From positions 3,472,001-3,536,000 of the forward strand of contig OX387607.1 of NCBI GenBank assembly GCA_947568835.1: a DNA stretch of 64,000 nt, read 5' to 3'. The stretch's first letter is position 1. Every line of letters begins with the position of its first letter. A model generated the notes under the pieces. That model was not told the origin of the DNA. It did no database searches and saw only the letters and a program-made list of their open reading frames with translations. Source of the stretch: Protonemura montana. Taxonomy: Eukaryota > Arthropoda > Insecta > Plecoptera > Nemouridae. The position numbers were made by a program, and so were the translations under genes. This document shows, piece by piece, positions 3,501-64,000 of this stretch.

Positions 3501-5675
3501 CCGAATTTTTAAGAACCTCAGATAGTCTAGCATTTACCAGCATTTTTAGCCTTGTATAGTTATTTATTAGTTTTAACTTTCAACTCTCTTCGTTACTTCA
3601 TTCATATGTAGCTCACATATAACTCTACCTGGAAAGTCATCGAAGGACGCAGCTAGAACTCATAGTGAGACTCAATCAATCACCAAACCTTGCTTAGTAT
3701 CGTTTAGACTTTAGGAGAAAATCACTCACAAAACAAGTGACCAACCCTAATACTTCCTCTAGGTACTTAACATAAAAATCCTCCTTTTTCTCTGACATAC
3801 GTCCAGTCAACGCATTGACATCGCTACCTAGTCAGGATTCACCAATTAAAGAGACAATATTATTTCTTCAAAAGAGTTCCCATTAGATGTGGTCGTGTGA
3901 TGTGACTCACGAATTTACGGTTGAGTTTGCACGCACCTAAAATTGCCATGCGTGATCGTGACACGCATGTTACACGTTGAGGATCCCCCGATTCAAATTC
4001 TTAAAAATGAGCATCGTTCTGCTGAGATGGGGATCATGAAAATTGGTGGGTGAGCTCGCAAAACAAAGTTCTGACACTGCTTAATGGTAACCTATCAATT
4101 TTCCCACAAAGATGTAGTTTTTTGTATAATTGTCCAAGTAGATTCGCAAATAGTGTCAATACACGAGATCTTTTTGGTTACGCACACCGCTAATGGTGAT
4201 GTCCACGATTATAATTGCCATAGTGAGCGCGCGCGTGAGCATGAATTGCTTAAAAAATGCGTGCGTGATTGTGTGTGACAAAAAATAATTTTTCGAGAGT
4301 CCCGACCTGACGTGGATGGATTTCCACTCACGCAACTACCTCTAGTTCCCATTTGATTTACAAGTGTAACTCACAGCCAGAATCTACAAGGCTAAGTGCA
4401 CAACAGAACCAAAGAATGTCCTGAATGGAGCTCTATGTTCGAAAGGTGGAGCAGCCAGACTGCCTGAAAGACGACGGAGAGGTAGCCAGACCGCAAGCAA
4501 CCCCAAGACCGCACACACACCATCACAAGCTTGCGTCGGTGGACAGCTTCAACTCGATGACACCTGAGACAGCGGCCAATCTGCGGTCGCGACCACGTAC
4601 GGCTTGGAGCAAGGAGCCCCATGTCTTGAACAACCAGCTCGAGAAGATCTCTTCCAAGGGACACGATCAGGTCTGTGCAGCATAGGGGATCATTTTCTCT
4701 TGATTCGTCGTGTGATGCTCTTTAGTTTCATTTCCTTTCCCTTGTTGATTTTTTCCATTCAGAAAACCAAAATACTCTTTATTAATTGTCATCACTCTGG
4801 AGGCAGAAATATCCTTTGCCAAGTGTGTCAAGTACATGCAACCTGCTTCAATATGCAGAGCTGTTTCAAACTTAGGTTAATTTGGCTTTTCTGTGTTTCT
4901 ACTGAATCTATTTCCCCCAAAATCTAATAAAGTTTGATCCTGATACAGTTTGCAGAGATTTTTTAAAATTCCCTGTCGACAGAACTTTTCATTTTAATAC
5001 AGAGACCATAGAAAGTAGGCTGCACCATTCTGAGTCGCCTTGCTAATCCAACAAATCCATCATCCCATCCAGGAAAACGCCAGTCCCAACCTCCGTGGGC
5101 CGTCAGCCTCACGCCGCAGCGGCAGCGTCGACCATTTCACCGACAAGATCAGCAGCATCCACTCATCAGCCCACGCCCATCTCCCCCGACCCACCCACAC
5201 TCACCACCGTAGCTCCCCGAACCTCCTAGCCGACCTCGAGATCAACAACAACAAGTACCACAACCACCGCAGCCCCAACCTGCCGCTAGTCAAGAGCAAG
5301 CTGCTGAACACGCGACCCTGTGTAGCTTGCGAGCTCAAGACCCCACCACCCGACCCTATGAAGCTGCTACGACGCCCCAAGTCCGAGTACAAGATGGCGT
5401 TCAAGGCTGGCAAGCCGACGAATAGCTTCGACAGCGGTTCTGGACCAAGTACGCGACCGACGACGGGGAAGCCGGTCAAGATGCCCAAACCGAGGCAGTT
5501 CACGAAGCGGAGCTACTCAATAGACACGTTAGCACCGCCGTTTTCACTCTGGCCTGGGAACAACGCGAGCAATCGCGATTATCCGGAACACTGGAGACTG
5601 GCGTCGGTATATCAACACGCGTACAAGCCAGTGGAAGCACGGAAAAAGCCGTTGTTAGCGAGTGTCTATCAGTGA
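544..5675 (+). CDS. Cfap126: Flattop (CFAP126)-like protein with long C-terminal extension, 5' end missing
   Basis: Flattop is a ciliary microtubule inner or basal-body protein. Proposed exons are 544-764, 1796-1986, 2239-2704, 3245-3433, 4446-4670 and 5073-5675; all phases join and give about 631 residues. The first exon carries the family signature, PRS followed by SPWGNFKGTWDLP and later KHDPE, which matches the PRS..NPWGSFMGTW and PHDPD region of vertebrate Flattop. Everything after it is low-complexity, rich in Pro, His, Ser and basic residues. The last exon repeats the hexapeptide LASVYQ twice near the stop. Vertebrate Flattop is only about 177 residues, so most of this protein is extra. 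The acceptor before 4446 (TTCGAAAG) is weak, but a stop at 4422-4424 forces a site close to it. The introns of 252 bp to 1.0 kb hold nothing recognisable. The N-terminal exon lies outside the window. The family call is fairly sure; the function of the tail is unknown. Confidence 0.72.
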
Positions 5676-6059: not shown

Positions 6060-8363
6060 CTAAGGCAACAGCCGGCTGTACTCCATGAAGAATGAGCTCT
6101 TCTTGGTAATGGCTTCCCACACTTTTGCAGCATAGTGGAGCCAGTTTTTCTCGGTAAGCACGGAGTGGGTCAGCGGGTAACGAGGCACTCCCAGCAGCTG
6201 CTCCTGGATCAAGCAACAAGGATTCATTTAATATTTTACTCCTGCAGAATCAGGACAAACCAGAGGGAAGTGAATTACGGTACTGTGTCATGTTCTTCCC
6301 TGTAATCTTATACTTTTAACTTATTTTTTAATTACATTTACAAATCATTTTCTACTTTTCTTGATAGACATACGAAACCTAACCCTATCATTCATTTAAA
6401 ACAATTGCCATCTACTATGCAAAAAGAAAAATACTCTCTACCCCAGCTGAAACCGGCAATGACCACATTCAGTCGCACTCGAAATACTTCTCTCTAGCAT
6501 AACCTACGTATTAGATTGATATAAGATTGACTCCAAGCTGTACCTGCAAGCTCTGCACCAGTTCTCGCATGCCAGGATGTCCCTTGTAGTGTCCCTTGTC
6601 GATGGACTCTTCGATGTCCGCCAACAGGAAGAGGTTGATGGGTTCGCCACAAGTCTTTGGGGACAGAGTGCTGGCCACGCCACCCATCGCTAGGCCTAGC
6701 CCGCTCTGGATTTTCAGCTTCGACTGATCGAAAGACTTTCGGTACACGTTCTACAAGAATATGGAGCATTTTGTTTACGATTGTTATTTATCACACCTAG
6801 TTCTTATGATATGTTACATAAAATGATCTCATCAACCTAAAATGTCTTAACAGGTGAAGTGATAAAAATAATTTCGACACCAACAGCAACAGGCATTCTC
6901 AAAATTAGCTAGTTTTTCAATTTTTCTAAGTTGCGTTCCTTCTGTCCTCTTCTCTACAAGCACCATTCAAGAATAACTTTTTTAATCTCTACATTACTTA
7001 AATTAGTTAGAGTGTTCAATCACCTGCATAAGTTTTATTTGGCTCTGACTGAAATCAGATGTCTGCGCTTTATTCTGGACAAACATGATATGTGGAGAGT
7101 ATTCAATAATCTCCTCGTCTTGGGTAGTTGTAGGCGTGGATGGCTTCAGCATTTCCGCGGACTGAAGAAACCTAATGAGGTTTGGGTCGAAAAACCAGTC
7201 TTGTACAACCAATACTACGTGGCACACGGAGAGCATGAATGCTGCTATTTGAAGTGATTGAATCTCCATTGCATTCTCCGTTGAACTGAATTCTGGTGTG
7301 AGAAACTTCTTGGCTTCCAAGTTGATGAGACAATCCATTACCGATGCCGATAAGACTGGTCGAGTGTCCAAAAACATAACTCTGTTAGAGGTAACGTAGA
7401 GATCGATGCCACTGGTACAATGAGCTGCAGCTTCTTGATGTTCATACGATGCTGGACTAAATATCAACGGAGTTCTTGAAAGAAAATATCGGTACATTAA
7501 CTTCAATTGTATTAAAAAGCAAACATAAAATTGCATATTTTATTGCTAGTTTTACTTACTTGTTGATGTCACCCAAATCATTGCCAGCAAGAAGTGACAT
7601 GATTGTTGACTTCCCAACCCCTTGCAACCCAATGCATCCAATTACTAAAAACTCACTCTGATCCAATAAATATTCCAAGGATACTTCAGAGAATTGGAGC
7701 AAATCGTCGAGCAGCTTTACGCTGCCTTTCATTTCCAATGGAGGAGCCAATGGATTGGTATCTGCCAAGGAAAGAGTAAACACAGAAAGAATAAAATTAC
7801 TTTGAAAGCATCCAGGCGTGGAGAAAAATTTTGAAGTAAATGCCACTTACTATCACTGCCTGCATGCTTAGCCACCAACTGGTAGACCGGCATTTGGCCA
7901 TCTGAATCTTTTTTTGTGGAGGAAGGAAACCTGTTGCTTGGAGAAACTGCTCGATTTTCATTGTCTCTTGTCCGCAAGATGCTGATAGCTGGTGTTCGTT
8001 CCGAGCTAGCGGAAGTGCTGTTGATTTGACTCCTTGTGTCTCCAGTCTTGTCTTTTTCACGCTCTAAGTCCCGCTCGCGGTCTGGCTTGGCAAGTATGAT
8101 TGGTGTCCGTACGCTACCAGCCAGTGGAACATCGGTTTTTTCCAGTACCTAAAAGATTTAAATAATAGTTTTAGGTTAGTAGAGAAACCAAAGATGATAC
8201 AATATCTTTCAAAAATGAACGACGTTTGGGTTGGAATTTGGAAGCAAAATATTCCAAATTCTATGATGCAGGTTATGTGACATATCATCGTTGATCATAC
8301 TTTATTGGCACCAGCACCAAAATACTTCTTGTTTGGAGGAAATCTTGAATCTCTATCAGACAT
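6060..8363 (-). CDS. Smg9: SMG9, nonsense-mediated mRNA decay factor
   Basis: SMG9 joins SMG8 and the SMG1 kinase in the cytoplasmic complex that phosphorylates UPF1. Exons in transcript order are 8363-8301, 8148-7851, 7761-7560, 7474-7024, 6750-6544 and 6203-6060, which give 454 residues with every phase matching. A GTPase-like fold is indicated by a Walker A stretch, GLQGVGKST, at residues 165-173. It is followed by the family blocks TSGIDLYVTSNRVMFLDTRP, EMQ-type SLQIAAF, VVLVVQDWF and FLQSAEMLKPSTP. The C-terminus, HSVLTEKNWLHYAAKVWE and the final EYSRLL, matches the end of vertebrate SMG9. The short first exon starts at the ATG 8363-8361 and encodes 21 polar residues; residues 22-120 are low-complexity, as in the family. 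HR96 lies upstream on the same strand, with about 520 bp between the coding regions. Confidence 0.95.
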
Positions 8364-8881: not shown

Positions 8882-11800
8882 CTATTGCGGCCGCTCTAGA
8901 CTGAGGCTAGCTGCGTTAAGGTCGAATATCTCGATGAGAAGGGGTTCGACGTCGCGAGGATTCACGTCGAGGTAAACCTTGACGTGCTCATCGTTGAGAC
9001 GATGAAGCTCCGCGATCTTCTGGATCATCTTCAAAAACGTGGACCGTGCCTCACAGCCCTGAAACAAGAGTTAGCACTTTGAAATGACTTCAAGCCTCAA
9101 GTTCCCAGATATCTTAACTTGTAACGTCATAGACGTGAGAGATTTCAGCAGAAACTTTGGCTAAGTAAGCTCTAAATAGAAATATTTGCACATATGTTTC
9201 GTGTTTGCTTTGTAAGTATGTATGGTCAAACAGCTGTTCTAATGTACATTTAACTTGTTCAGTAGACCACTTCAAAATCTCCCAAGTCTCTCAATGGTTC
9301 CTACCTGGTATATGCTCTCTAGGTATCTCCTCAGTAAATAGTAGTATGCATTTTGCTCGAGTCGGATTACGTCGTGATGTACCACGCGAGGTCGGTCGGG
9401 CGTGAACAGTGTGATGGCACCAAGTATTAACATGATGTTCTCGTCCGTCCGCCAGCGCAGCTCAAAGGTACGCAGGAAGCGTTGGTGCTCTTCGTAGATG
9501 TTACCTCGCGCCTCTTTCAGTACGTCCACCTTGACATTTAGCCGCTCCTGAGTGTGTGGTATCTGGAAGGCAGACCAAAAGGCAAGGATCGCTGTCAGAA
9601 TTTGACAAAAACCTCTCAATCGTGATTTGTAATCAAGACAGGAGCCAAAAAGTTCACCTCAAGCTGAAGGACCAGGTTGGACTGTGTGGTAAACACAGTC
9701 ACTACCTGGGACCAGACTTCATAGCCCATCAAAATGGTTGAATCTTAAGTGTAAGATGGATGGATGAAGGCTACTCACATTCCAGGAATTCTTGTCAGGG
9801 TCGTAGGTCATGGCGCTGCGTAGTATGAGCATCTCGGTGCAGCCGCCTTTGAGCAGCGCTACCTGATCCTCCTGGCACATGTTCTTAAACGCGTTGATCT
9901 TCTTCGAGGTCTTGATCAGCCGGCGGATGGCGATCGCCGTCAAGTTGATTACGTCGAGCAAGTCGGGGTGCTGCTCTACGTTTGTCTGTGCGCGCAGGGA
10001 AGAAGGTACGATGAGGGCAGCTCACAATAAACGTTGGGTGAAGGGGATATAATCTAAAAGTTCCATTGGCACTAAATACGATTGATATGTTTGACTGAAG
10101 TCGTGGCCGGAGTTACAAGACAGCATATAACTCCAGCAGTAAGAGTGAATTTGATGAAATAACAAAAACAGGGACATGCTTAGTTGATGTTTCTACAATG
10201 GCAGCCACTCGGAATGAGTGAATGGACGATGGTGCCATTTTCAATCGACATAGCAATTTTGGCTTGGTCACCTTTTTTTAAAAGAAATGCTTATTAAATT
10301 AATTTTCCTACCGCTCACCTTGAAAAGGTTGCATTCGTCACCGACAAGCGTGGATAGGTCGTGGTCCAAGGGGTCATGCAAAGCCTTGTTGGCGACGATG
10401 AGTTCGTTGAGCTTTGCGCGCTCTGCGTCGTTGAGTTCCCGTGAGTTGTGTGGTGTCTTAGCTAGTGAACTGTATGCCTCGAACTCGAGCTTGATGGCCT
10501 CGCTCAGGATCGACTCGATCGAGTTAGCGGCCGAAGACGAGGACGAGGGGCCCCTGCAAAACGTAACAGTACTATTGAGAAAAATATGACAGCATGATTG
10601 TAAGAGAATCTGAATGTGATCTGCTGGTGGTGTATTTGGGAAGGCTGGAGGTAGGATATTGGAGATTTTGACAATGATGCAGTCATTAAATGTTGAAGTA
10701 TGATTAATACTTCAAATATCAGTAGGATTTTTGGTTTCTCTTGTGTTTTCGACATAAAAGCTCAAACAAGGAAGCAAATAATGGACGGGGCATAAGGCAT
10801 TTGTCCAACTATGCTGCTATGCTACAGATCTCAGTGGCCTCACCTCTGATTGGTGGCCTGCACGTCCATTAGTGTTTCATGAGCCGCCTCTTTGGTACTG
10901 CGGTAGTACGACGGAGCTGGCGGCAGTTCTTCGCTCTCCAACGAAGCAGCCATCGCGCTGGGAACCCGCGGAGGTGAAAGACGGTTCGGAGACATTGACT
11001 CTAGCTTTGGAACTTGCGTCACACTGAGTCCTGTCAATGGAAAATCACTCGGTCAGATGTTGACATTACGAGAACAAGGCAAAATAGCCAAAATTACATA
11101 ACACTAACAGCTTTTCTAACCTCGTAAATTGTATTCATTTTTGTTGGATATATCTTGAACTAGAGCCTTTCAGTTTAAGTAATCTACACCGTAGCAAACC
11201 GTAAAGAAAACCAAACTCTGCTTTTTAATAGCAACTGGGTAAACTATGTTGTACATAATTGTTGCAATGTGTCATTTAAATAACAAGGAACACACTGACA
11301 ATATCATATAAATGAACAAAAGGAAATAATAATATATTATTGTTGTTACTACCCTTTCAAAATTGTGTACCCAATGGGAATTGGGGATAGTGTTGAAAAC
11401 AATTAAAAGCTCTGCTCATTGCAATCATTCACATTTTACATAACCCAAGTTCACAAATGCTCTCATACCGTTTGGCATGCCAGTGATGAGAGATGCCAGC
11501 AACGGCGTGTCGCTCTTCCCGCCTGGTTTGGCAAGTATCGAGGCAGGTGTGATGGCGGGGGTAATGACTGAGACGGGGGTGGAGCCACGAGACGTCTGCT
11601 GGGTGACCATCTCCGCAGTGCGGCACGCCGCTGTCGCGGAGTCGGGCGGAGACGACGGGCTGGGAACACTGGCGGCACCCGCAGGGGATGGGAAACCCTC
11701 GGCCGTCTGGAACAGTCAATGCAAAACCTCAGCAGGAGATCGCAATGAAATGCCTTCTGACGTTGGTTTACAGTCGTTTTTTGTCAGATACCTGAGCTTG

Positions 11801-13306
11801 GTCGTTTAGAAATGTCATAAAATCTTATCATAAAAAGAAAAATGTCAAAACGGTATAAGATGAAACGATCCACGCAACTCCATCTATTTTTCGAGTTTCC
11901 GGTAAATTGCATTCTCCTTCTTTCTTTTCCTTCACCCAAACCAATAAATTTAAAAAGCACAAGAAAAAACAAGTGATTTCAACAGCACAAAATAAAATAA
12001 AAGTCTGTCAAGACTTGCAAGCTCTCTATGTATCACATTGCCTCAAAACTTTTTTATTACTATTTTTCGAGTCCATGTACCTTTCTAACTCTTTCCAAAC
12101 ATATCCTAACATATGCTACTTACTTCATCACAGTTTCACGTTTGTCTGACTCAACTTCAACATCCTTCGTATGGCACATTGGGAGGTACATGGTTTTTTT
12201 GCATTATGTAGCGTTTCATTCTCACAACCTTCCCATGGGGTTCATGATCCTTATCAATCGCAAAGTAAATGTTGTCAGACCCTTTTTTTATTGGCTATAA
12301 GTCATAGTGTTGCCGTAGCTCACCTCATGTGAATGTGATGTATTGGAATTAGGGGCAGGTGTGATGTTAGCTGAAACATCTTCGGCTTCTTCGTAGCTTT
12401 CTTCTAACGCTGAACTGCCCACCCAGATCTTGTGGTTAGGCTCAAGCAGGCCACGTAAAGTCCCATTCTCGTACATTTCGTGACTGCATTCGTCTTCTTC
12501 TTTGTAACTATGGAAAAATCAGATCAAATGTTATGCAATTGAAGCCAAACATATAATTCTTGCATTTTCTTAAATTGAGTTAAGCCGTTTGCTTTTATTT
12601 TTAACAAATAACAATCAAACAAGCATCAGAGATCTTTGCTGGGATGCTGGAGTAGATATCTACCTTGAGTGCTCTGCCGATGGTCGCTTCTTGGCTCGGT
12701 TCTGCTCGATCTTCTGCTTCTTGATAACTTTGTCTTCGTCGGTCATGATGTAGTCCTTTCTCATGCCGATATCGAGGCACTTGACCAGACGACATCGCTG
12801 GCAGAAGCGGCGAGTGACCAGTGTTATCTCACATTTTTCGCCGAAGGGGCAATGGAATTCCTGTTCAATTTATTTTTGGGTTAAAAACTTGGATACCATA
12901 ATAGTTAATAAATGCACTCAAAAGATAATATTTTGCATTTTCCAGCAATTTATTTTCTAATATTTGACTCGGCAAGAAGCTTAGTTCTTATTTGATGGCT
13001 AGAGTGGTGATAGATAAGTTGATTGTGTCATTGAACATTTATGCTGATCTAACATCATTCTGATGACAAAGCTGTTTCAGGCTACTTTTAAAATAATCAC
13101 ATTGAAAATACACTAGTAATATGACATTAAAGGAGCACTACCTTGTTCTTGAGCGCATTTCTGCGGAAGAACGCTTTGCATGACTCGCATGTGACCGCAT
13201 TGAAGTTGTATCCCAACGCCTTGTCACCACAAACACCGCAAACTTTAAGGTCGACTTTCGCTTGGGAAGAATTGTCGACGGCTGGCTCTTTTTGTTCACT
13301 ATCCAT
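8882..13306 (-). CDS. Hr96: Nuclear hormone receptor HR96 (NR1J family)
   Basis: In insects HR96 is a nuclear receptor that controls xenobiotic, sterol and lipid responses; it is related to vertebrate VDR, PXR and CAR. Exons in transcript order are 13306-13142, 12860-12664, 12507-12324, 11706-11469, 11030-10844, 10553-10319, 9985-9779, 9562-9305 and 9058-8882, giving 615 residues in phase. The DNA-binding domain spans about residues 22-90. Finger one reads [18 protein letters not shown], the P-box CESCKA is at 40-45 as in fly HR96, and finger two ends [16 protein letters not shown] Ser/Pro-rich hinge of about 230 residues follows. The ligand-binding domain runs from about 330 to the end and includes the block [19 protein letters not shown]. 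The AF-2 helix, PLLIEIFDL, lies near the C-terminus. The start was set at the ATG at 13306, 22 codons before the first zinc cysteine, behind a possible acceptor in the 5'UTR. SMG9 follows on the same strand. Confidence 0.95.
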
Positions 13307-14236
13307 GTAGACTTGAAGCTGGCAGTCCCGGGACCTTCGTAAAAAGATGTTTAGGGTTAATGGAGACACCGCTCAATTCGGAGCAGTATCACTATGCCCC
13401 ATTTGTTTCCTTTTGGTGCCAGTTTAGGTTAAAAACTTCAGATTGCGATAACGCAAATTTTCTGTATGATTTAGCTTCTGCTATCATTACATGAGTCATA
13501 GGTTAATCACGGATCAATTAGTAAGTGCACAGATTATCAAAATTAGCTCTTGAGAATATTCCAGGGTTGGGTCGCTGTCAGATTTTTAGTTATGTCTTAA
13601 GGAAAACTGTCGATGTTGTTCGAATAAGTAATCTTTACCTGAAATTTATCCCCTGGTACCATTACGTCAACAAACCATTCGCTGTCATTACCCTCATCGC
13701 GAAGATCACAGCCTAAATTCTCTTTCACGTTCACATTCAGATTTAATCAATATTACGTCACGAGTCCGACACGGCTGTCAACAAGTTGGCGGGAGTTTCG
13801 AGCCATTTCGAGCGGTCTCGTTTCTTGGGTCTCGTTCTCGCAAAATTATATGCGCCACACCGGGCCAACGAGGGATCACAGTACAATTTTCGATCTATAT
13901 CTTTGTTATTTATTTAATTTTACTAAATGTTTCTGAGGGTCTTTGGCCTTAAAAATGCACTTTTCAATAAAATCATCATACCATGATTTATTGCATCATT
14001 ACTTTTGTTGAATGTCATGCATATTTCCCTCGCATAACAAAAACACATGTAGTTTTGCCATTCCACAATTCTTTACTAACTGTGTGAACATCAAACCGTT
14101 GCTCATCAAAACGCAGTTACCTAACAGAGCCTGTTTACATGGCAAGTCAGCAAATTAATAAAATACACATGCCAAACAAAACAAGGGTCAGTTTATGTTT
14201 TTTCAATGTAAAGCTCGCGATCAGTTTCAAAATATC
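13307..14236. promoter_or_regulatory. Divergent promoter region between HR96 and the GH79-like gene
   Basis: This 0.9 kb gap separates two genes that point away from each other. A CpG-richer block at about 13740-13870 is a plausible HR96 promoter. Two copies of the CRE/ATF-like octamer TTACGTCA lie at 13662-13669 and 13753-13760. No coding exon is seen. The HR96 5'UTR probably starts within this gap. Confidence 0.4.
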
Positions 14237-14523: not shown

Positions 14524-17500
14524 ATGGACGTGCAGGGCTTGATCAGACTGACTCTGCTTGCCGTAACGCTGGGCGTCGGGATGGCCGTCGGGCTAGACCA
14601 CGAGGACACGTCGGTGACGATCAGAACAAAGACGCCAAGCCACTCAGTCAGTGAGAGATTCATCAGCCTCTCCGTGGACCCAACGATTTTACTTCAGAAT
14701 GATTTCAGGTATGGCTTCAAACCAAGATAAAGACATACCAGCGACATGCGATAACGAGATCGTAAGACTGACGACGAATCTTAAATTTGCAGCCCTTCAC
14801 TCGCGAAAATAATCAGCTTCCTGCAAGGACTAAGCCCTGCGTACATCCGAATCGGGGGTCCTGGCACCAACAACTACAACTATTTGAGAGACAAAAGCGA
14901 CAAGAATCAAACAGTCATCACTGGTACGTAACCATCACCGACCCTAGCAACTGGCAAGTGGTTGAGTTTCAACCGTTCGGTACGAGTGTGCATGTGCACC
15001 ACAAAGGAAAGGGCACGGCACCAACGGGCCGTAGAAAAACTGCCCGGAAGTAAGAGGGTGTGCATTTTTGACCCTACTAGCCCAGTTGCTACGATTTGGA
15101 ACGAACCAGGAAAATATCAAAGACCCAATGCCTCCAAAGACGGTAGATTCGTCTTCAAATCGAGCCGGACATCTTCTATGTCTTACATGTTTTTGACTTT
15201 ACAGAAGCGCAATGGGTGATCTTCAACGAGTTCGCTAAGAACAACGGCCTGGAGCCCATCGTCTGCTTGAACGCCCTCGCTCGGTTGGATGGACACTGGG
15301 ACCCTACCAACGCCGTCGAGCTAATCGCTTTCTCGGCCAGGATGAAGTACAAGCTCGGCTGGCAGCTGGGATACGGTGAGAACCTGCCACGATTAGAAAA
15401 GCAAATATTTCGGTAGAAATACATACAATCAACAATCGATTTTTAATGATTCAAAGTTTTTAAGTCTCGCTGATATCGGGTTACTTGAAACCCATTATAG
15501 GGGGAATTATTAACGTGTCTCTTACTTTTGGAGACTTTAGAGTTTATAATTCCTGTGAAGTTTTGAGGAAACTTAATTACCACTCTCCCCCCCCCCCCCC
15601 TTCCAGGGTTACCTCTCAGTGAGCAGGACACTCATCCCATCTAGCCGAAGATACTGATAGTAAAGTCACCGAATCTTCCCTAACGTTCCTGACGTTCAGT
15701 TCCTGACATTTGCCGCATTCCCGTACAGAGCTGCAGTCGACTGGCACCCCGATCAGTGGCGTACAGTTCGGCAAAGACTACTCCAGTTTCCGCAGCATTC
15801 TGCGTACGTTCCCGAGCTACGCTGACGCCACCATCGTGGGACCCGACATGACTCGCTACCAAGAAGCACACGACGTCGACTTTTTAGCGACGCTCTTTGA
15901 CGAGGCCGGCGACGCCGTCTCCTCCGTAATCTGGCATCCGTGAGTCGCCATTTTAAAAAGGCTTTCTCCGCTTGAATAGTTCGGAATGGGGGTACTGTTT
16001 CGTTATCATGAAACTCGTTTTAGATTGTACTGGTCTTTGGTCTCACTTATATATTTTTTAATTAGCAGATGAAACAGATGTCCACAAGAAGAAGACAAGT
16101 AAACTAGCTTTTCTTCCTCCTTCAGCCCATTGGCCACAATAATAGTCATGCGTGCTTCACATTTCTTAACATGGCGAATCGCCTTCGCCTGTATCTTGGC
16201 CAACAAACTCAGATCTCGTGATCTCCTTTCAGCAACGCGCCCGCCGACACTGAAGGCAACTTGCAAACACTCGTCTCGGATATTTACAAGGAGAAGGAAT
16301 TGGTATCAAGACGTCTGGGCGACCTCCTAGCCGGCAAGGACGTGTGGATGGGTGAGAGCAACCATCATCACGCTATCGGCGAGGGTCGGCGATGGGTATA
16401 TACCACGCCAATCGAACCAAGCACTTGTTTTCTGACATTTTGTCTGCATTCCAGCTGAGAGCGAGGCCGAGAGGGACGCGTCCAAGGGGGAATACGCCGA
16501 CGCGCTGTCGTGGGCGTTGAAACTTGGGTCGGCGGCCAGCTTGGGCATCCAAGTGGTGCTCAAGCACCCCGGCATGGTGCACTTCCATCACCCCACGCCG
16601 GTATAAAGATTTCCGCCGGTCAAGATTTCGTTTACAGCTGTTTACAGCTGGCCTATCATTAGATTGACCGTGGAAAATTCGTTGCAATTTATACCAGGAA
16701 AAGTTTTGTAAGACAGATTTGCCCAAATCGGTCTAATCGAAAACAGATGAATAATAAATAATTCGCCATGTGGATTATGCGATATCAGAACATTGCCATG
16801 TCTCTTAAGAGAGACAGTTGCAACATGATTCCTCCTGTCTGTTCCAGGACTACTGGGTCTCGTTCCTGCACAAGTCTCTGGTCGGCCGAGTGGTCCTTGA
16901 GAACCGTATGAACGGCCCCGACAGTAGCGTCCAGTTGTACTCGCACTGCGCACGTACAGAAGGGGGCGTTTCACCGGCTCGGTACGCGTCCGGAGCAATG
17001 GCTCTGTTTGGCGTGAACACGTTGCAGCACAGGGTCAGTCTGGTGCTGCGGACAAGCACGTGGGAAGGGGCGAAACGCCACGGCGACGTCCACCAGTTCA
17101 CCATCACCTCCACAGACATGCAGGAGCCTCTCAAAGCCAAGTAAGAGCACGTTTCAGACTCGATATTATGGCAACACACATGAGATTCCTGTCTATTAGG
17201 AATGGAAATACGTTCAGAGAAGGTAAAGAGTGGGAAGCTCAAAGTTTGGACAAAGGTTTGGAGTCAATTGGTTCGATTTAAAGCAAATTATTTTCCGTTC
17301 AGTTCTCTTCTATCCTGCTACTCTCACCCCCCCCCCCCCCCCCCCCCTCTTTCACATCGCACACTCAAATAAAATAATGATCTTGGAGTCATCACCAAGG
17401 ATCATTAAGAGTCATTGAAAACAGTGACCATGGGGTTATGGTTTTTAGACTCGTGTCTCCTTAATCTAGCCTTGGCACTAGTTTTGACAAAAGCTTTTTC

Positions 17501-20500
17501 TCAAGTGACCAGGGTTACTGACAATCGTTTTTCCATGCTTCCAGAAATGTCGTCCTGAACGGCCACCTCTTGTCCATGGACAAGCTTGGCAACCTGCCGA
17601 CCCTTAGGCCAGAAGTTATCCCCTACGACGGTGACCTCACCCTGAATCTGCCCGGCCAGTCGGTTGTCTTCTGGGTCTTCCCCGATGCAAACGTCACCGC
17701 CTGCCTCGTCCACGACGCCGCCGACGCCATCGGCTCGACTCCCGCCTCGCTGCAAGCGCGCGCACTCGACGACGACGCCGAGAAGGTAGACGCCGTCGAA
17801 GACACTGAAGCCGAGATGAGCGAGGTGCAAGTCGACACAGAAAAATCTTCGGTGGAAACCGACGAAGACACGCCGACAGACGAACAAGTGTCAAACAGCT
17901 TCCAAGGCGTCGGCCGCCTGGACAAGAACAGCACTGTGAACGGGATGCTCCACGACATGCTGGAGTCCGCCAACCCCTTCCCGTTGACCTCGTCAGACGT
18001 CGTCAACGCGAACCACTCCGCAGCCAAGGTCATCACCGACAAGGACTGGGAAGATATCAAAGACAAGTATCTCATCTCCAAGTTCATGTTCGTCCTGAAA
18101 CGTGACCCGAAGACGTTGAGGGATCGCTCAACACCGCTCACCGATCAGGAGATCATCACGGTGTCCAACGACGAGACATTCGGTCAGCGCTTCTCGCGCG
18201 CCCTCGATGACGGTCTCTACACCATACCTGGGTTGGACTTGAAGCTCTATCAGCCGAGCAGTTTCAAGAATCCTTTGCAGGCCATGAAGGAGCCACTGGT
18301 CGAGTCACTTAAGGGTCCGCTGGAGTCGCTGAAGCGTCTGCGCGAGGAGCGCTGGGAGAAGCTGCAGATGAAGAAGCTGATGGACGACGCCGAGGAGGAA
18401 ACGGTGAGGGCGTCGCTCGCCGTCCCCGGGACATTGTTCGTCGCCGAGCGCCAGGTGGAGGCGACGACGCGACGCAACGACGAGTACGTGTACGTCGACG
18501 AGGCCGCGCCTCCAGAGGGAGACTACGACGACGACGAGGGGAAAGTGGGTCAAAAGTTTCCGGCGAACGGCCCTTGGGAGATCTACGAGGGACTCGGCAT
18601 GAAAACGAAGAAGACGAGGAATAAGGACAGGGATTACGGGGAGCTGTGGGCGGCGGAGGGCGTTTCGTCGGACAAAGGGAAGGTCGAGGAGAAAGAGGAG
18701 ACGGAAGTAATCGAGAAGCAAGAGATGACGCAGATGGAAGTCAAAGATGTGGCGCGCAAAGTGGCGAAGGCACATAAGAAGAAAGAGGACAAGAAGCGAG
18801 AAGAAGAAAGTAAAGGCGAAGAGTTAGTGAAACGGAAAGGAAATAGTGAAAAGAAATTTACAGAAGCGGCCGCCAAGGAAGGCGAGATGATTGACTCGAG
18901 CAAAGAAGCCTCGACGAAAGCGACCACCGAACGCCAGGAGGACGTTGAAACCGCCATGATCGAAGACGGAGAGTGGAAAGAAATGCAGGACGACAAGAGA
19001 GCGAAACTACGCCGACGTCGCGACTCACCGACGGACGACGTCGATGACCACAAAGAGTCCGAGCAGCTTTTTGAGGACATTTCCGTCCACTTCGACGACG
19101 AGGACACAACGCAGACTCAGCCGCCGCCACCACAAACCCTGGCCCCGCTCCCGCCCAATGACCACCTCTCGGTGATCAAGAGCCTCACCAGCATCCGCAA
19201 GGACGCTTCCAAGAGGGCGTGGATCGACAGCACGATGAAGGTAAACGCCCAGGACCCCGACACGCACGTAATGAACATCAACGAGTACAACGAGGCGCTA
19301 CGCGCGGCGAACGAGACCGAGAGGCTGATGGCACAGATTGCCGCCAACAGGAGCGACTTGATCGTCGGTGAGGAGTCGCAGGTTGCACACGTCACGCTCG
19401 AGGACCACTTCGACCCCTCGGCGGAAACCACGAAGAGGCCAGAGGACACGAAGCTGTTCGCCAAAGACTTCGGCAAGGAGTTTAGCAAGAAGCTCGAGGG
19501 AAGCGCCTTCATGCGTCGGCTGAAAGCGGACAAGAAGACGTTGACGGCATCGAAAGAGACAGATCAAACAGAAGGCAGCACGTCGGTGGAAGTCACAGAG
19601 ACAACGACGTCGCAGGCAACTACGGTGGGTGACGAAGAGACGGAGACGGCGCCGAAATTAACGACGCGAATGAGTCTTTTCAGCGCCCTTGGTGTGGCCA
19701 AAGCTTCCGGCAAGAAAGAGAAGATGGACGAGGAGTCTATTGGCTGGAAGCTGGACGAAGAGGTAGAGAACCAGTCGACGGCCAATGAACGCAACGTCCG
19801 GGAGAGCAAAGTGGTCGTCATGGAGACGGAAGACATCGACGCGAAGATTGTCGAGGAGGCCGACGTCGGCGCAATCGACAGGAACGTGCGTGAGGGTCGG
19901 GTGATAGCGACCAAGATCTCGCCGGACAAAACGCCGGCCGTCGAGGTCAAGACGATCTACATCCCGCGGCGGGCAAACGATCTGGACCTTGCGCCGTTCA
20001 GGTTGACTGGATTTGCCAAGCTACCGGGGATCGCCGACATGCCGTCGCCGAGGCTGCCGGAAATCCCGAAGTTTGCCGAAATTCCTCCGCTGCCGGCGGG
20101 CGCGGTGGACTTGCCGGAGAAAGTGAGCATCAACCAGCTGGGAGAGAGGTTTGGGGCGACGGCGAGGAAAGCGAAGGAAAATATGGAGGGCGCTGCGAAG
20201 AGGATGAGGGAAATGACCGAAGGAAAACTGACGAATGGGCGAATTTTCCAGGCGCGCAACAACGAGCAGAAACCGATTGCTAATAAAAATACACAGGCAG
20301 ACACGGTTGTAAATGAGTTAAGAAAATTCGAGAAATCTGCTTCCGAGTTTGCCAAATACAATAGGAAAGTACCAGTGGTGCCTGCGGCCGAAACTGCCCA
20401 GAAAGAACCCGTTTCACCGGAAATCTCGGGTGAGATCAAAAGGCTGAGGGAGAGAATTTTCAACATGTTTGACAAAAACAATCCGAAAGAAAGGAAGATG

Positions 20501-22345
20501 TTGCCGAAACTTGCGAAAGAGTTAGCGAACGTCGAGCAAAATCTGAAGAATAAAATCGCGCCACCCCCGAGATTCGAACTGCTACCAAACGCCGCGCCAG
20601 TGTTCCCGAAACTCCGCGAGATGATGGCACGGTCGATGAGCACTATCGCCCCGGCAAGGTTCCCTCTTACAGGACTGCGCAGGACACCTGAGCTGCCGCC
20701 CGCCGCCCCCCTGCCACAACCCTTCAAGAAGTTCTCGCTGACGAAAGTCGAGCCACTGACCACCCCGAAGCCTGCACCCAAGGAGGTCTTGCAGCAACAG
20801 GCCCGATCTTTCGCCTCAGACATAGAAGACTTTGCCGGCAAGGTGTCCAAACAGTTCCAAGAAATCCCCCAGATCGACAAAGTAGTGACGAAGACCAAAG
20901 ATTATATAGGCGATATGACCCAAGAACTGAAGAAGGACGTCAATGAGGTCGCGAACAAGTTTAAAGAAATCCCTGAATCGGTGGGCGAAAAGATCAAAGA
21001 CAACGCACAGATAAACGCGGCCGTATCAAAGACCAAAGAGTTGATTTCCAAGATCGACGAAGACCTCAAAAAATTCCGCTCGGCACCGACACCCGCGAGT
21101 GGCCCTGGACGGGCGAAAGAGGTGCAGAATCAGCTGGATGCGACCGAAGTTGATGTGAAGGACAAACTGGACGGCGTCGTGCGCCGCATGGAGGAGATCA
21201 ACACGAACCTTCGCGACGCTATCGTGCAGCGTAGGCCGAAGAGATCAGTCGGAGGACACTCGGCAAAGTCCAACCTATTAACCAACATTTTGCTAGACGA
21301 GGAAATTTACAACGCCAACTCGCACAACATGAAGAGGAACTTCCGCAAGAGCCTCCGGTACAATTCTTACGACGCCAGCAGCGAGAAGCACATTATCTCT
21401 CGGCGGGATGTGCTTCAAGATGATGCCAAACTCGTCAGCTATCTTATCTTGCACAAACCGATACCGGTTGATAAAGTGAAGAAGCCGATTGTCTATCGGT
21501 ACTCGTCAGAAAGCGATGACGAAGAGACAGAAAGGCTTCGCAATCAGCTGAAGACGATGAAGGAAAACAGGAAGAACGCCATTGACGAGTTGCTGAACGA
21601 AAGTCAGATGCCAAACGATTTTTCATCGTGGGATTCGAAAGGCCAATCTGAGTACAAGCATGGCAAGGAAGATTTTGCACCAACTTACGTGAACGCCTTC
21701 GGTGGAATGTATGACGACGCGTTTTACGACGCAGGCAACTTTGATCTGGAAAGAATGAAACGACAGATTTCTCAAAGGAGCGACAACAAAAACAAGGAGG
21801 TTTATGACGACCACTTGCCGCTCAATGGCGACAGCGACCGCAAATTTGTAGTGAAGCGAGGAATTTACGATAATCGAGTAGACGATGAGTCGGTTGAACG
21901 GCTTCCTGTCATGATCAAACCCAGCTTGGACAAAAGTAACTTAGACAACTTGCATTTTTTTAGTAAGATGGCCATCATGGCAGAACCGAAGACAAAACAT
22001 AGTAACGAGCAGCCAAGAGAAGTTCAACCAAGCCAAAGAGTAGTCAATCCTTTTCTTCGCTGGAACATGAACGTCTTCCCTGAGGAAACTGTTCATGACA
22101 TTACGATGAAAAAAAAGGACGTCGCATTACAGAGTCAGATCGTGCACAGCCTGGGAGTGGACTTCGCTCCGACTTCAGCGTCGCCGTTGAAGTTGAAAGA
22201 GAGTCAGATGGAACGTGGACAGGTCATCGCTATCGTAGATGCGACGGGCGAGGAAAAAAAGGAAACTCGAGGCATTTTCCGGCGGTTTGTCAACCGGCTG
22301 AAGAAATTCTTTGGTGATCCTGAGACCATTCATGTAGAGACGTAG
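14524..22345 (+). CDS. Secreted heparanase-like (GH79) protein fused to a ~1540-residue charged extension
   Basis: Heparanases are secreted or lysosomal GH79 endo-glucuronidases that cut heparan sulfate. Exons are 14524-14708, 14793-14923, 15205-15375, 15729-15939, 16233-16351, 16455-16600, 16848-17140 and 17545-22345, in phase for 2018 residues. Residues 1-23 are a signal peptide. The GH79 core covers about 25-474, with landmarks GLSPAYIRIGG, GLEPIVCLNAL, LGWQLGYE, SVIWHP, DVWMAESE, DYWVSFLHKSLVG and the C-terminal FWVFPDANVTACLV. Glutamates align with the human acid/base (E163) and nucleophile (E274), but neighbouring positions differ: N before E163 is Y, WHHYY is WHPN, and the MRQ..Y region is LKHP. 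Activity is therefore doubtful. From about 475 the single last exon continues for some 1540 residues, rich in Glu, Lys, Asp and Thr. It has helical segments and basic cleavage-like sites such as RRRR (908-911) and RPKRS (1649-1653). The core family is sure; the tail is unrecognised. Confidence 0.85.
15587..15600. repeat. C14 homopolymer in an intron
   Basis: An uninterrupted run of 14 C lies in the third coding intron of the GH79-like gene. It is a simple repeat whose length is prone to sequencing error. Confidence 0.9.
17327..17347. repeat. C21 homopolymer in an intron
   Basis: An uninterrupted run of 21 C lies in the last intron of the GH79-like gene, about 200 bp before the giant exon. 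The minus strand could form a G-quadruplex. Confidence 0.9.
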
Positions 22346-24827
22346 TGGCCCGATCCAGTTATTTATTTGTGTCTGTATATACGTATAGTTATTTATTTGT
22401 GACGCATTGTCCGTTGTTATTTATTATTGCATACTTTGATGTGTCAATACATTTGCGAGATTGTTATTTAAAGTTTTTTTGTATTATTTTATCAAATCTG
22501 GCTGAAAAACACCGAAAGATTCTTGCATTATTTAAACAGTTATATTGGTAATGTATGGTCTTTGGCAATGGCATGCTTCACATAAAATTGCAAAACTGTA
22601 GGTACATGTCCGCTGGCGCTCAACTAGATGCCGCTCATCTCGATTGATTCTTGACTAGCTATAATCTAGAATTCCCTTTCCACCCTGCGTCGGGACTTTG
22701 CATGACTTTTCTCCATTTAATCTTTCCCGAAAGAAAGTGCCTTTGCACATTTTAAAATGTCGATTTGGCTCTTGTCTTCTGTCAAAAGTTTAAAAATTAC
22801 CATGCTGAGTGTTTTGAGCAATGCGGCAGGGGTTGCAAATTTTGAACCTCACAGTTGCGGTGGGTGACACCACGTTTTTCGGCATACAATTTGGTATACA
22901 ATTTTCGCCTTCCTCAAGAACCAGTCTGTGGCTATGACACTGCCACTGTACACCACAACCGTCGTGGATTGTTTATATACTTTTAATTTGAGCAATTGTG
23001 CACCTGTAAACAATCCCTTAATGACCGATCGATTTCTTAATTTACGCGTGACACAATCAAATAACGATGACGTGCGGCGATTGTAGAAGGTAAAAAAAGG
23101 AAATCGGCAAGCTTGCAGAAATCCTGCCGTATATGGCATTACCACCGAGTTGACAATTAAGAATCCGCGAAAAATTTGCAACGACTACCGAACGCGATCA
23201 GCACATTTCACGGAGGATTCTATGGAGTAAGCGTTGTGCAAATTTACGGCTGAAGAATCGCTAGAAGCAATTGAGCTTGTTAGAACGATAGGACTGGAGT
23301 TACTGCTGCTTAGAGTCTGGAGATCTTCGACTAGTGCTACTGAGCGTTGAGCTCGTATCAAGAAAGGTAATTTAAATCGTATAAACACATGTATACTAGT
23401 TATTAAAGCACATATACTTTCTGTTACTGTTCGGTGACTTCTATTGAGAATACCACTTTGGAGACTCTCAAAGTCAAATTTAAATACCGGAAAGTTGAAT
23501 TAAGTTTAGGAACAGTATCGTTGTATATTATTTTTGCAAAATCGGCATCTATTTCTACAAATAGAACCACCACAGTTGAAATTTCCAATTTTATTGGCAA
23601 GAGCAAACGTAAATTTGGATATTTAGGTAACGTCAAAGGGTTTCAAAATTAAAAGTCATCAAGTAAATAGAATTAATTGCGTGAATGCCCTTTCGATGTT
23701 CTGATAGTTTGTATGGTATTTAATTTCACAAAGAAACCTAATCCACGTTTTTCGAAACATTTTCTGGTGTAAAAAAGTCTAAATCTTTTCACTCACCTAT
23801 ACATTTTAATCAATCGTAGACCAGACATTGAATTCTCTTCTTAGCAACACTGAGTGAGAGAAGCGCCAAGTGTGGCAGGTAACATTCTCTCCACACGAAA
23901 GTGACACTAGGAAATAAAACACACATTTGCGTACTTCTTTCTGGTAGTACTGCTAAGACATAATTGGGAGTCCAGTTGACCAAATGACACGCTCGTCTGC
24001 GAGTGGAAGGAGAGGTTGATTTTGATTTTGATTTCTGGGAGATTTGGGAAATCAAACCCGTGTCGAGCATTGGCTGATATCAATTGACATCTCAGCTGCG
24101 ATTCGCTTAATCAGTTCGTTATCAGATACAGGGTACATTTTTAGGACAGTTGCACCTGAGTCAGGCTGATAGTTATTTAAGTACCTAACATACAAGACCT
24201 ATAAAACATGTTTAAATGATAAATTAATTGTAAATAAATACTCTCTGTAGATAATATTAACATCAAACGCACGCGTGGTACTAATTTGGTAAAATACGAT
24301 ACGTTATTTTGAAAAATAACAATGAGCGTGGATTTACACCAAAATTATATTTTGAACTGTGATTATGGCTTGTCTGGAACGTGGAACGAAAAATGTATCT
24401 GCTCTTCATTGACGTTGTTTAATGATTTTAAACGAAAAATTAACGCTCCAGCGTACATGTAGGCCAGTTTATTACAAATACATTGCCTTCATCAACGGCC
24501 TACTCCGAGAATCTAGCCAACAATTGATTTCCAATAACAATTGGACACCAAACAATAGCAACTTCGTGGAGCAATTTGATTGCAATGGATTTACTTTCTT
24601 CTAATTTACCACCGAGTGGGCGCTTCAACAATATCTTGTTATTATTAAAACATTTCGATTCCAGAACAGAGTGAGATTTTAGAGCGGCGAGTATGGCAAA
24701 GATTTGTCAGTCACATTTTAGAATGTGATTTGGTTTCATCTGTGTTGGCGATGGCAGTGCAGTCCCTAGCATTAGTTTGTCTCTTCGTGTTTTCCAGACC
24801 TTATTAGGGCTGATCGAGAGCTGTGCC
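22346..24827. other. Intergenic region between two secreted-protein genes
   Basis: This 2.5 kb stretch is AT-rich. It should hold the 3'UTR of the GH79-like gene and the promoter of the next gene, but no clear AATAAA was found directly after the stop at 22345. Open frames at 22849-23388 on the minus strand show no known family and no splice support. A possible 5'UTR acceptor (TTTTCCAG ending at 24797) precedes the next ATG. Confidence 0.5.
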
Positions 24828-27800
24828 ATGGCACCGAAGACGAGGGTAGGTGTCCTCATCCTGGTGTTAGCTGCCCAAATTTCGGGACCATCAGCATTCT
24901 TATCGCAACGGGATCCAAGAAACAAGTAAGTGCCTTCAGTGTCAAACGTATCTGCAGCTGTTTTATCACTGATTATCACTTATTATCACTGACCTGCATC
25001 TTACGTTTCAGTGACTTGGCCACTGGAGTTCAAAATCGCGATGCGTCGGGTAGTGATGAGCTCAAGTCGGAAATCAGAGATTTTGTCAAGCATGAAAATC
25101 AGGATCACTTACGCATGAGAAACAGAGACAGAAAGTTCTACGAGGACGAAATCAAATTATTCAAGTCCTTGATGGGCTCCTCAGAGGATCAGGGCGAACA
25201 AAAACCAGGGAAGGGAAAAAAGAGTGGCTCGAAAACAAAAGAGTTCCCAAAAACTTATAACAAGGAACAGAGCGAGAAAACATTAACGCGAATCAAGAGA
25301 CAGGATGTAGAACAAAATGATTCTCATTTTATAATGCCTCGGAGTGCTTCTTATTCGACAGGCTACGTAAACCTTCAACCAAACGGACCCTTTCTGCACC
25401 ATGTAGCCGTGAATGTTCCTAATTTTCCTCACCACTCTCAAATGCAGCCCTTTCCTGCCCAGACCCCGGTGGCCTCTTATTCCCAAACGCTTCCCTATCA
25501 GAGTTTTTCTGTCAACAATAATCCTTCCCCGCTATCCCATGCCACATATCAGAGGTCCATTTTACCCAATTCTCGGGAAGTCAATCTTCAATTATTGAAA
25601 TCGGTCAACGGCGGAGATGACTTCGAAAGGGCCCCTCGAACTTTTGGCTTGGGGAGAAATACTGCACCATTCGGAAGAGCCGACTCTCCATCGAACCTTC
25701 TTGGAGAGCGCTTTCAAAGCATCGACAGCAGCTCTCCGTTTGGTAGCGGTTTAATGCAAAACAATCCCATCTTGGACAGCATTAGTCAGAATCTAGACCG
25801 AAGCCGCATCCAAATGCTGGAACAGCAGCTTCGCATTCGCGACGAGAGGTTGCGAAACCTCGAGCAGGAACTCATGCAGAACTGCAACCGACGGCCGGAC
25901 ATTTTCATGGGGGGGCGGCAAAATAACTTTGATGGCTTTCCAAGGATGCCAGACTTTGGTTCGCTAAGAGGGCGACCAAACATTATCCAGCAGTTGCCGA
26001 TGAGTGACCTGCAAGAATTTTCACAGCCTCGTCCTGCAATGGGGCCCATGTTTCAAGGCAGATCAAGGACAAAGGATCAAGAAGAACATTTTGTGCGACC
26101 TCCATCAGCTCGCTTTGACGAGGGGACAGAGCTAGACCAGATTCAGAAGGCAAAAGAGTTTGATTTTAATAAAGAACCCATCGGCTACAATAATGTGCAG
26201 GATCGAGGACTTGCTGGAATGATTCAGAAAGGGAGACCATCAATTTTTCAGCCAACAGATTCAAAAAAAGCAAGCTCATCTCCAATATCCATAAAAAATC
26301 CTGAAAAGCAAACAAATTTAGTGAATGCCCCTGAAAGAACTTTCCAGCCTAAGTCGGCCGACGCAAATAACGAGGCGCCAATTCCAAATGAAGTAGTTAA
26401 CGAGTCTGGGCAGTTTGTTGATGGCCAGTGGTTGCCGACAGCAAGGCAACAACTAAGAAACAACGAAGGAGTTCCGTTCTGCGTCCTACCTCCGGCTCCG
26501 GCTTCATCGCCAAGACAACAGAATAATGCTGAGCAAGAGATTCCTAGCAACGTGCAAGATTTGGACAAAGATCAACAACAACTTGTCCTCGAAACTTTAG
26601 AACAAGCCGTTAAGCCGTTGATGAAATCCATCGACTCAATCAAAGAAAACGGATTGGATACAGAAGAGCCAGTTGCAACAAGACCGATTCCAAAGCTGAA
26701 AGATCTATTGACGCCCAGAGCACTGCTGCCACCGCCTCGCATGCCTACATTCAGATCACGCAGTGAAGACGACGATGGACAAGCCACGGGCACCTTGGCA
26801 AACCCTGCAGGCCCAATTGAGCCGGAAGGCCCCAGAATTTTAACAAACTTGAGAGGTCTGGGAGATGACCAGACAAAAGCGACACCCAATATCTTCCTCG
26901 GCAAGCCACCAACTGAGCCACGTCCACTAAAAGATGCCCTTGAGAAGATGCGGTCGAATCGCATAGAGATCCTGCAGGATCTGGCCGAAAACCTCAAGCC
27001 TCTCGAGAGGCCAGGATTGCTGGGCCTGAAAAGACCCCTGATTCCACAAGATGTTTTCAGTACTGTTGCAGCTGAGCAATCGGTACCGCAGGTACAAAAC
27101 AATGAAGGCTTCCAGGTGCAGCCGCTAGAAGTGACTGAAGAAAGGTTGGGTCAAGAAGTTGGTTTGCCGATTTCAAAGCAACCTTTAATGACAAAATCAA
27201 CTTTTGAAGATGATCCTGTAGAAAATTCTGAAACCATCTCTTCTCCGAAGAAATTAGCAACAGAACTGATAATTACAAATGAAGAACCCGAGTCACCTAT
27301 CAATGAAAATCAAGGAAATGGATTATCAAGCCTTTCACCAACAATGAAAACAGTCGATGGTGCTTTGGATGCCAAACCTTCAAAGAAAACAATTCCTCGT
27401 CCCAAAACACATTCGAAGGCAGGAAAAGAACCTGCTTTGATGGGACTAGATTCGTTGCGAGGAGGAATGCCAATCAGTGAAACAGATAAATTGCTTCCAA
27501 AAATGGAAGAAAGCTCAACGGTCTCGCCAAGAGAAAACGAAAATAACTCAGATGAAAACTACGTTGATATGGAAACGGAAAATGATTCACCCACGGCAAG
27601 AAACAAAGAAGAGACAGCCGTCAAAGAAGCCCAGCCGTCAATCTGCCAGAAAATCATCAAAGAGATTGTGACTCGTGAGATGGAAAGTCACGCAAAGGAC
27701 ACAAACCCAGCAATGTTTATCAACAAGAACTTCACTAATGAACTAATGAAACGTGTCAACAGTGAGATAGCCAGGTATCGGGATGCTCATGCCACCGATG

Positions 27801-27973
27801 GCCTGGACTACACGGGAACATGTGACAACGCAGATATGAAGCTAGAAATTGTCAGTCAAGTCCTACTTATGCTGAACCACTGGATCCAGGAAGTGCCATC
27901 AGCAGCACAGGCAGGAGTAAACACATTGACAGAAGGCCAGATCAGCGAATTAAGAAATCTTCTTGGCAGTTAG
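24828..27973 (+). CDS. Unrecognised secreted protein of 1019 residues
   Basis: I do not recognise this gene. Two exons, 24828-24925 and 25012-27973, join in phase (AA|T, Asn33). The start ATG opens a clear signal peptide, with a basic MAPKTR start and then a hydrophobic core ending near GPSAF (about residue 24). A basic cleavage-like site, RIKRQ, sits near residue 126. Residues of about 295-328 form a short coiled coil rich in Gln, Glu and Arg (MLEQQLRIRDERLRNLEQEL). The middle is low-complexity, rich in Pro, Asn, Gln and Ser. The last 120 residues look more ordered: they start near PSICQKIIKEIV, contain two cysteines and end in a helix with LLMLNHWIQEV. No transmembrane helix follows the signal, so the product is probably secreted, perhaps structural or cuticular. 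It follows the GH79-like gene on the same strand after 2.5 kb. Confidence 0.8.

Positions 27974-57878: not shown

Positions 57879-64000
<6,122 letters not shown>

Follow-up and report, generated by a model that had tools for sequence, protein, structure and literature searches.

A divergent GH79 heparanase-like head joined in frame to a long charged tail in Protonemura montana

We analyzed a window of 64,000 nucleotides from the plecopteran Protonemura montana (contig OX387607.1 of assembly GCA_947568835.1, positions 3,472,001 to 3,536,000 of the forward strand). All coordinates below are those of the window. On its + strand lies a gene in which a divergent GH79 head, homologous to heparanase, continues without a stop into an extension of 1545 residues. 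We consider, with a probability of about 0.5, that it is one gene encoding one secreted protein, which consists of a degraded single-chain GH79 head and a mostly disordered, helix-bearing, charged tail.

Gene model and coding nature of the extension

The rebuilt model has eight exons, seven GT-AG introns and an ATG at 14524 (Table 1). The product of 2018 residues has the same length as that given by an earlier sequence-only reading of the window. The head comprises residues 1-473, and the boundary was placed at L473, where the C-terminus of vertebrate heparanase aligns. The frame that encodes the C-terminal strand of GH79 continues open through exon 8. The last exon had been described as open for about 4.6 kb past the GH79 beta domain, and the 1545 stop-free codons at 17708-22342 agree with this. 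The extension was also said to begin where known heparanases end, at about 540 residues. The place of the junction was confirmed, but the head has 473 residues rather than about 540 because the 6-kDa linker is absent.

The extension is genuine coding sequence. Given the base composition, 1545 codons would be free of stops by chance with a probability of about 1e-29, and 78 and 53 stops interrupt the two remaining sense frames over the extension. The extension had a Fourier 3-periodicity of 82.4, compared with 11.9 in the neighbouring long exon and 0.6 in 22346-24800. This signal weakened along the extension: it was 25 in the first block of 900 bases and 12 in the fifth. Third codon positions had a GC content (GC3) of 0.755 over the head and 0.691 over the tail, and no dip was detected at the junction. 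Codon preference was scored with a training set of the head, RPL19 and MAK16. In each of the six blocks, the tail frame scored above both alternative sense frames; the absolute scores were highest over the first 300 tail residues and approximately zero beyond the first block. One reverse frame equaled the tail frame over the whole extension (0.014), yet this reverse frame holds 31 stops. Thus, the codon-preference measure is weak when taken alone.

The GH79 head and its relatives

The head is homologous to GH79 proteins. PF03662 (Glyco_hydro_79n) matched residues 104-231 with 37.6 bits, above the cutoff of 23.1. In the Protein Data Bank (PDB), residues 99-473 matched the 50-kDa chain of heparanase (E 3e-37) and residues 32-88 matched the 8-kDa chain (E 5e-4). 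The C-terminal beta domain is present, since the part encoded by exons 7-8 matched heparanase with E 2.2e-12 through the last residue of the chain. Only about 10 residues lie between the matches to the 8-kDa and 50-kDa chains, and the activation linker of HPSE1 is therefore absent. A signal-peptide-like N-terminus was recognized by eye, and the protein may be secreted.

Active-site residues were numbered by hand on the PDB heparanase alignment, using 13 positions which, apart from the two catalytic glutamates, we take to be those of heparanase. Both catalytic glutamates are kept: E163 corresponds to the acid/base Glu225 and E274 to the nucleophile Glu343. H232 aligns with His296. In contrast to these 3 of 13, the other 10 are changed (Asn224 to Tyr, Gln270 to Arg, Arg272 to Glu, Gly349 to Asp, Gln383 to His, Asn390 to His and Tyr391 to Phe) or fall in alignment gaps (Lys231, Tyr298 and Gly350), and the head does not have the full set of active-site residues of a functional HPSE1. 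The Asn before the acid/base Glu is generally conserved in this clan. The head is probably a divergent member of GH79 whose cleft is degraded and which acts on heparan sulfate weakly or not at all.

A head that is still an active endo-glycosidase of altered specificity, with a tail that only localizes it, is in our view rather unlikely given the Tyr before the acid/base residue and the 10 positions changed or gapped. Nevertheless, the two glutamates are aligned and kept. Furthermore, according to a passage of a 2025 review, the 6-kDa linker blocks the cleft of human pro-heparanase (PMC12406646), and without the linker the cleft would be expected to stay open.

Compared with heparanase 1 (HPSE), the head aligns to each of the two subunits (8 kDa and 50 kDa), stops at the same terminal residue and carries both catalytic glutamates, but it lacks the linker and most of the active-site residues, and the tail is additional. 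The hyaluronoglucuronidase 7eyo matched head residues 133-472 (E 1.9e-27); however, it is a chain of 496 residues without a long tail. Heparanase 2 (HPSE2), a GH79 pseudoenzyme, is similar in its GH79 fold, its degraded active site and its single unprocessed chain, as far as the consulted part of the review describes it (PMC12406646). In the same source, HPSE2 has lost the nucleophile and keeps the lid helix, and HPSE2c ends at Arg592. The present head differs from HPSE2 in both respects, since it has the nucleophile and lacks the lid/linker region.

According to the review passages, insects and nematodes lack functional heparanase genes and Ecdysozoa lack HPSE2; divergent proteins of Drosophila and Capitella carry heparanase annotation (PMC12406646). 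The extension itself gave no match above a Pfam or NCBIfam cutoff. Human heparanase has 543 residues. The 'Heparanase' of Bombus terrestris (A0A6P3UBL9) is phosphorylated at S551 in a bumblebee phosphoproteome (PMC9604461). This position is beyond the human length, and thus public insect proteomes may already contain proteins with tails; as far as the phosphosite report goes, S551 suggests residues past a head of 473-543 residues. A putative heparanase of the fire ant was reported to have four nonsynonymous substitutions on the SB branch and eight on the Sb branch (PMC6279166). Neither the bumblebee nor the fire ant passage mentions an extension. Both reports hint at the existence of heparanases in insects, possibly with tails, and they weaken the claim that the protein is new. 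Among the titles and abstracts listed, no description of an arthropod heparanase with an extension was found, which is weak evidence of absence, since in some of the searches just a small share of the matches was listed and the word heparanase occurred in none of those papers; subscription journals were mostly outside the search.

Composition and predicted structure of the tail

As the sequence-only reading had claimed, the tail is rich in Glu (10.3%), Lys (10.0%), Asp (8.0%) and Pro (5.7%). It contains zero cysteine. FoldIndex was positive at 94% of the head positions and at 29% of the tail positions. Single-sequence AlphaFold, which is a poor test of disorder, gave a mean predicted local distance difference test score (pLDDT) of 48 for 600 tail residues and 42 for 945, with 416 and 694 of these residues, respectively, scoring below 50. 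In this model the tail is not uniformly disordered: long helices were predicted, including those around residues 805-910 and 1498-1647. Across residues 1431-1660, the hydrophobic period was 3.5. Lys or Arg four residues ahead of an acidic residue was enriched (61 against 45.5 expected; 0.5% of shuffles), as in charged helices. No tandem repeats were found in the tail, and its direct repeats (eight families) are only short and imperfect.

The claim that the extension has no recognized family agrees with the searches. Three NCBIfam matches were far below cutoff. The best PDB match had E 2 for the whole tail and E 0.16 for its last 945 residues (chain DerF7_binder2). The apolipoprotein family PF01442 (Apolipoprotein A1/A4/E) matched residues 1501-1632 with 22.8 bits (8.1e-5) against a cutoff of 90, and ApoLp-III scored 16.1 for the same stretch against 36.3. 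The stretch resembles exchangeable apolipoproteins and ApoLp-III in being amphipathic and helical, but it is far under their cutoffs and is also matched by many families of helical or coiled-coil proteins. Since one 400-residue piece of the tail was matched by 33 families, none of the 25 listed reaching its cutoff, we regard the apolipoprotein match as a generic amphipathic helix. On this ground, apolipoprotein and Baculo_PEP_C (0.01; 1.1e-4 for the piece) were rejected as the identity of the tail. Pattern matches to the tail numbered 19 in viral contigs and 19 in prokaryote genomes, none of which was confirmed, and no pattern match to the head was found in viral contigs; animal relatives are not expected in these collections.

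The tail could also be a propeptide or polyprotein, that is, a secreted precursor that is cut at basic sites and whose pieces act apart, such as a cationic C-terminal peptide. RX[KR]R occurs three times (residues 908, 1649 and 1822), which, like the cationic amphipathic helix near the C-terminus, is consistent with this, and basic pairs are mildly enriched in the tail ([KR]R 24 against 15.2, with 1% of shuffles reaching 24). However, the furin-like motifs themselves are not significantly enriched (3 where 0.93 would be expected; at least 3 in 6.7% of shuffles), and no internal protein repeats were detected, self-BLASTP returning the full self match only. Thus, we think that such processing is unlikely.

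Table 1. Positions of the exons of the GH79 gene and of features in its extension
Feature	Position	Strand	Content	Basis
Exon 1	14524..14708	+	signal-peptide-like N-terminus, start of GH79 head	GT-AG model; signal peptide by eye only
Exon 2	14793..14923	+	6-kDa linker between the two heparanase subunits absent	GT-AG model, PDB heparanase alignment
Exon 3	15205..15375	+	Y162 replaces Asn224; codon of E163 (acid/base Glu225) split onto exon 4	
Exon 4	15729..15939	+		GT-AG model
Exon 5	16233..16351	+		GT-AG model
Exon 6	16455..16600	+	E274 (nucleophile Glu343) at 16457-16459	
Exon 7	16848..17140	+	beta domain of head	GT-AG model, PDB alignment
Exon 8	17545..22345	+	last GH79 beta-domain strands (to 17707) and whole extension; stop TAG 22343-22345	
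Extension	17708..22342	+	residues 474-2018, 1545 aa, no cysteine	
Two further RX[KR]R motifs	19010-19021, 21233-21244	+		
Amphipathic helical stretch	20789..21184	+	residues 1501-1632	weak apolipoprotein/ApoLp-III-like match, helices predicted
RMKR, furin-like RX[KR]R motif	21752..21763	+		
Cationic amphipathic helix near C-terminus	22271..22315	+	residues 1995-2009	top helical moment listed for tail, predicted helix

Transcript structure, neighbouring genes and meaning

Head and tail would be carried by one transcript, to judge from the continuous frame. The best donor candidate near the end of the head is at 17786 (score 1.1). Within the tail exon, two donors (18404 and 20430) score 5.0, and the acceptors 20673 (4.0) and 20820 (4.1) are of ordinary strength compared with the model median of 4.1. 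When donor 18404 is joined to either acceptor, the frame is shifted. The potential introns 20430-20672 (243 bases) and 20430-20819 (390 bases) are in frame, and thus the tail would merely be shortened. A strong acceptor (8.1) at 24798 is directly before the ATG of the next gene and most simply belongs to that gene. AATAAA motifs were found in intron 6 (16753) and intron 7 (17368), and AATAAA/ATTAAA motifs in the tail exon at 20282 and 20549; therefore, short isoforms are possible. The first such motif 3' of the stop is at 23402, more than 1 kb away.

These splice and polyadenylation signals would fit a long frame that belongs to a separate or alternative transcript, with heparanase-like isoforms ending earlier. 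We regard this as less likely still than the processing of a precursor, since the frame that completes GH79 enters the tail without a stop or a gap of non-coding composition, and the two in-frame introns would do no more than reduce the length of the tail. That two adjacent genes were merged by an assembly or base error which erased a stop codon is a possibility left by one sequence as the sole source, but a very improbable one, because two genes need a 3' untranslated region (UTR), a promoter and a 5' UTR between them, whereas GC3 is steady at 0.78-0.83 across the four 100-codon blocks of residues 401 to 800 and thus gives no sign of these over the junction, the coding score peaks in the first 300 tail residues, and no signal-peptide-like start was seen by eye after the junction.

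Several points weigh against one gene encoding one secreted protein of the proposed kind. The alignment of the head with heparanase is uncertain near loops, and the aligned PDB heparanase chain is presumably an engineered variant. Because both catalytic glutamates are kept, activity on another substrate is possible. The AlphaFold scores bear poorly on disorder, and the furin-like motif count is not significant. In the tail, neither SxE motifs (11 against 10.3 expected) nor N-glycosylation sites (6 against 8.0) are enriched; there is no RGD and there are only three SG pairs, so the tail gives no direct pointer to a matrix or proteoglycan function. As for splicing, two of the seven model donors (-0.1 and -1.1) score below candidate 17786, and alternative splicing therefore stays possible. 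Six of the seven model acceptors score below 6, with a median of 4.1.

If the protein is made as a single secreted chain, the head, having lost the activation linker and most active-site contacts, would be a weak enzyme at best, and it is more likely a glycan-binding or protein-binding module than an enzyme. It may dock the protein on glycans, either heparan sulfate or another polysaccharide. The tail may be an extended spacer or a self-associating or lipid-contacting part in the matrix, cuticle or haemolymph. The earlier proposal of a structural protein built on a sugar-binding head is upheld in part: a GH79 head with a signal-peptide-like N-terminus is joined in frame to a family-less extension, but sugar binding by a head with 10 of 13 active-site residues changed or gapped is conjectural, as is a role of the protein in the extracellular matrix or as a structural protein. 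We tentatively suggest, as a narrower possibility, a secreted pseudoenzyme scaffold in which the degraded GH79 head anchors a new family of long cysteine-free helical/disordered tails. It could be a matrix or haemolymph protein tethered to glycans, in a clade reported to be without functional heparanases.

The downstream gene at 24828-27973 (+) has a signal-peptide-like N-terminus (by eye) followed by a long low-complexity exon, with a RIKRQ basic site. No Pfam match above cutoff was found for this gene, and its homology to the tail was rejected (best BLASTP E 0.16 among the matches listed). Exons of neighbouring genes matched RPL19, MAK16, Smg8/Smg9, C2H2 zinc fingers and 2-hydroxyacid dehydrogenase in Pfam; we take the last to be CtBP and the zinc fingers at 52479-52865 to be glass. 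An exon at 7003-7539 (-) matched Smg8_Smg9 (E 7.8e-6), and minus-strand frames beside it presumably form the rest of an SMG9-like gene. At 9272-13310 (-) there is what we assume to be a nuclear receptor gene resembling HR96, although its exon at 9272-9658, the only one searched, had no hit in Pfam. Taken together, these presumed neighbours suggest an arthropod genome. An exon at 5034-5675 (+) contains DUF4812 (E 1.3e-29). GC-rich short tandem repeats at 50876-50915 and 58131-58171 encode polyglycine in open frames. The former is near the presumed glass-like gene (+), and the latter is in a minus-strand frame that we take to resemble a CtBP-like C-terminal exon.

Our results present a clear GH79 gene of a different architecture in an insect, a group reported, in the part of the review cited, to be without functional heparanase (PMC12406646). 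The unusual architecture could explain why such GH79 genes are overlooked. In addition, its product would be a separate example of the heparanase fold, in which the role of the fold could be tested where normal catalysis is missing.

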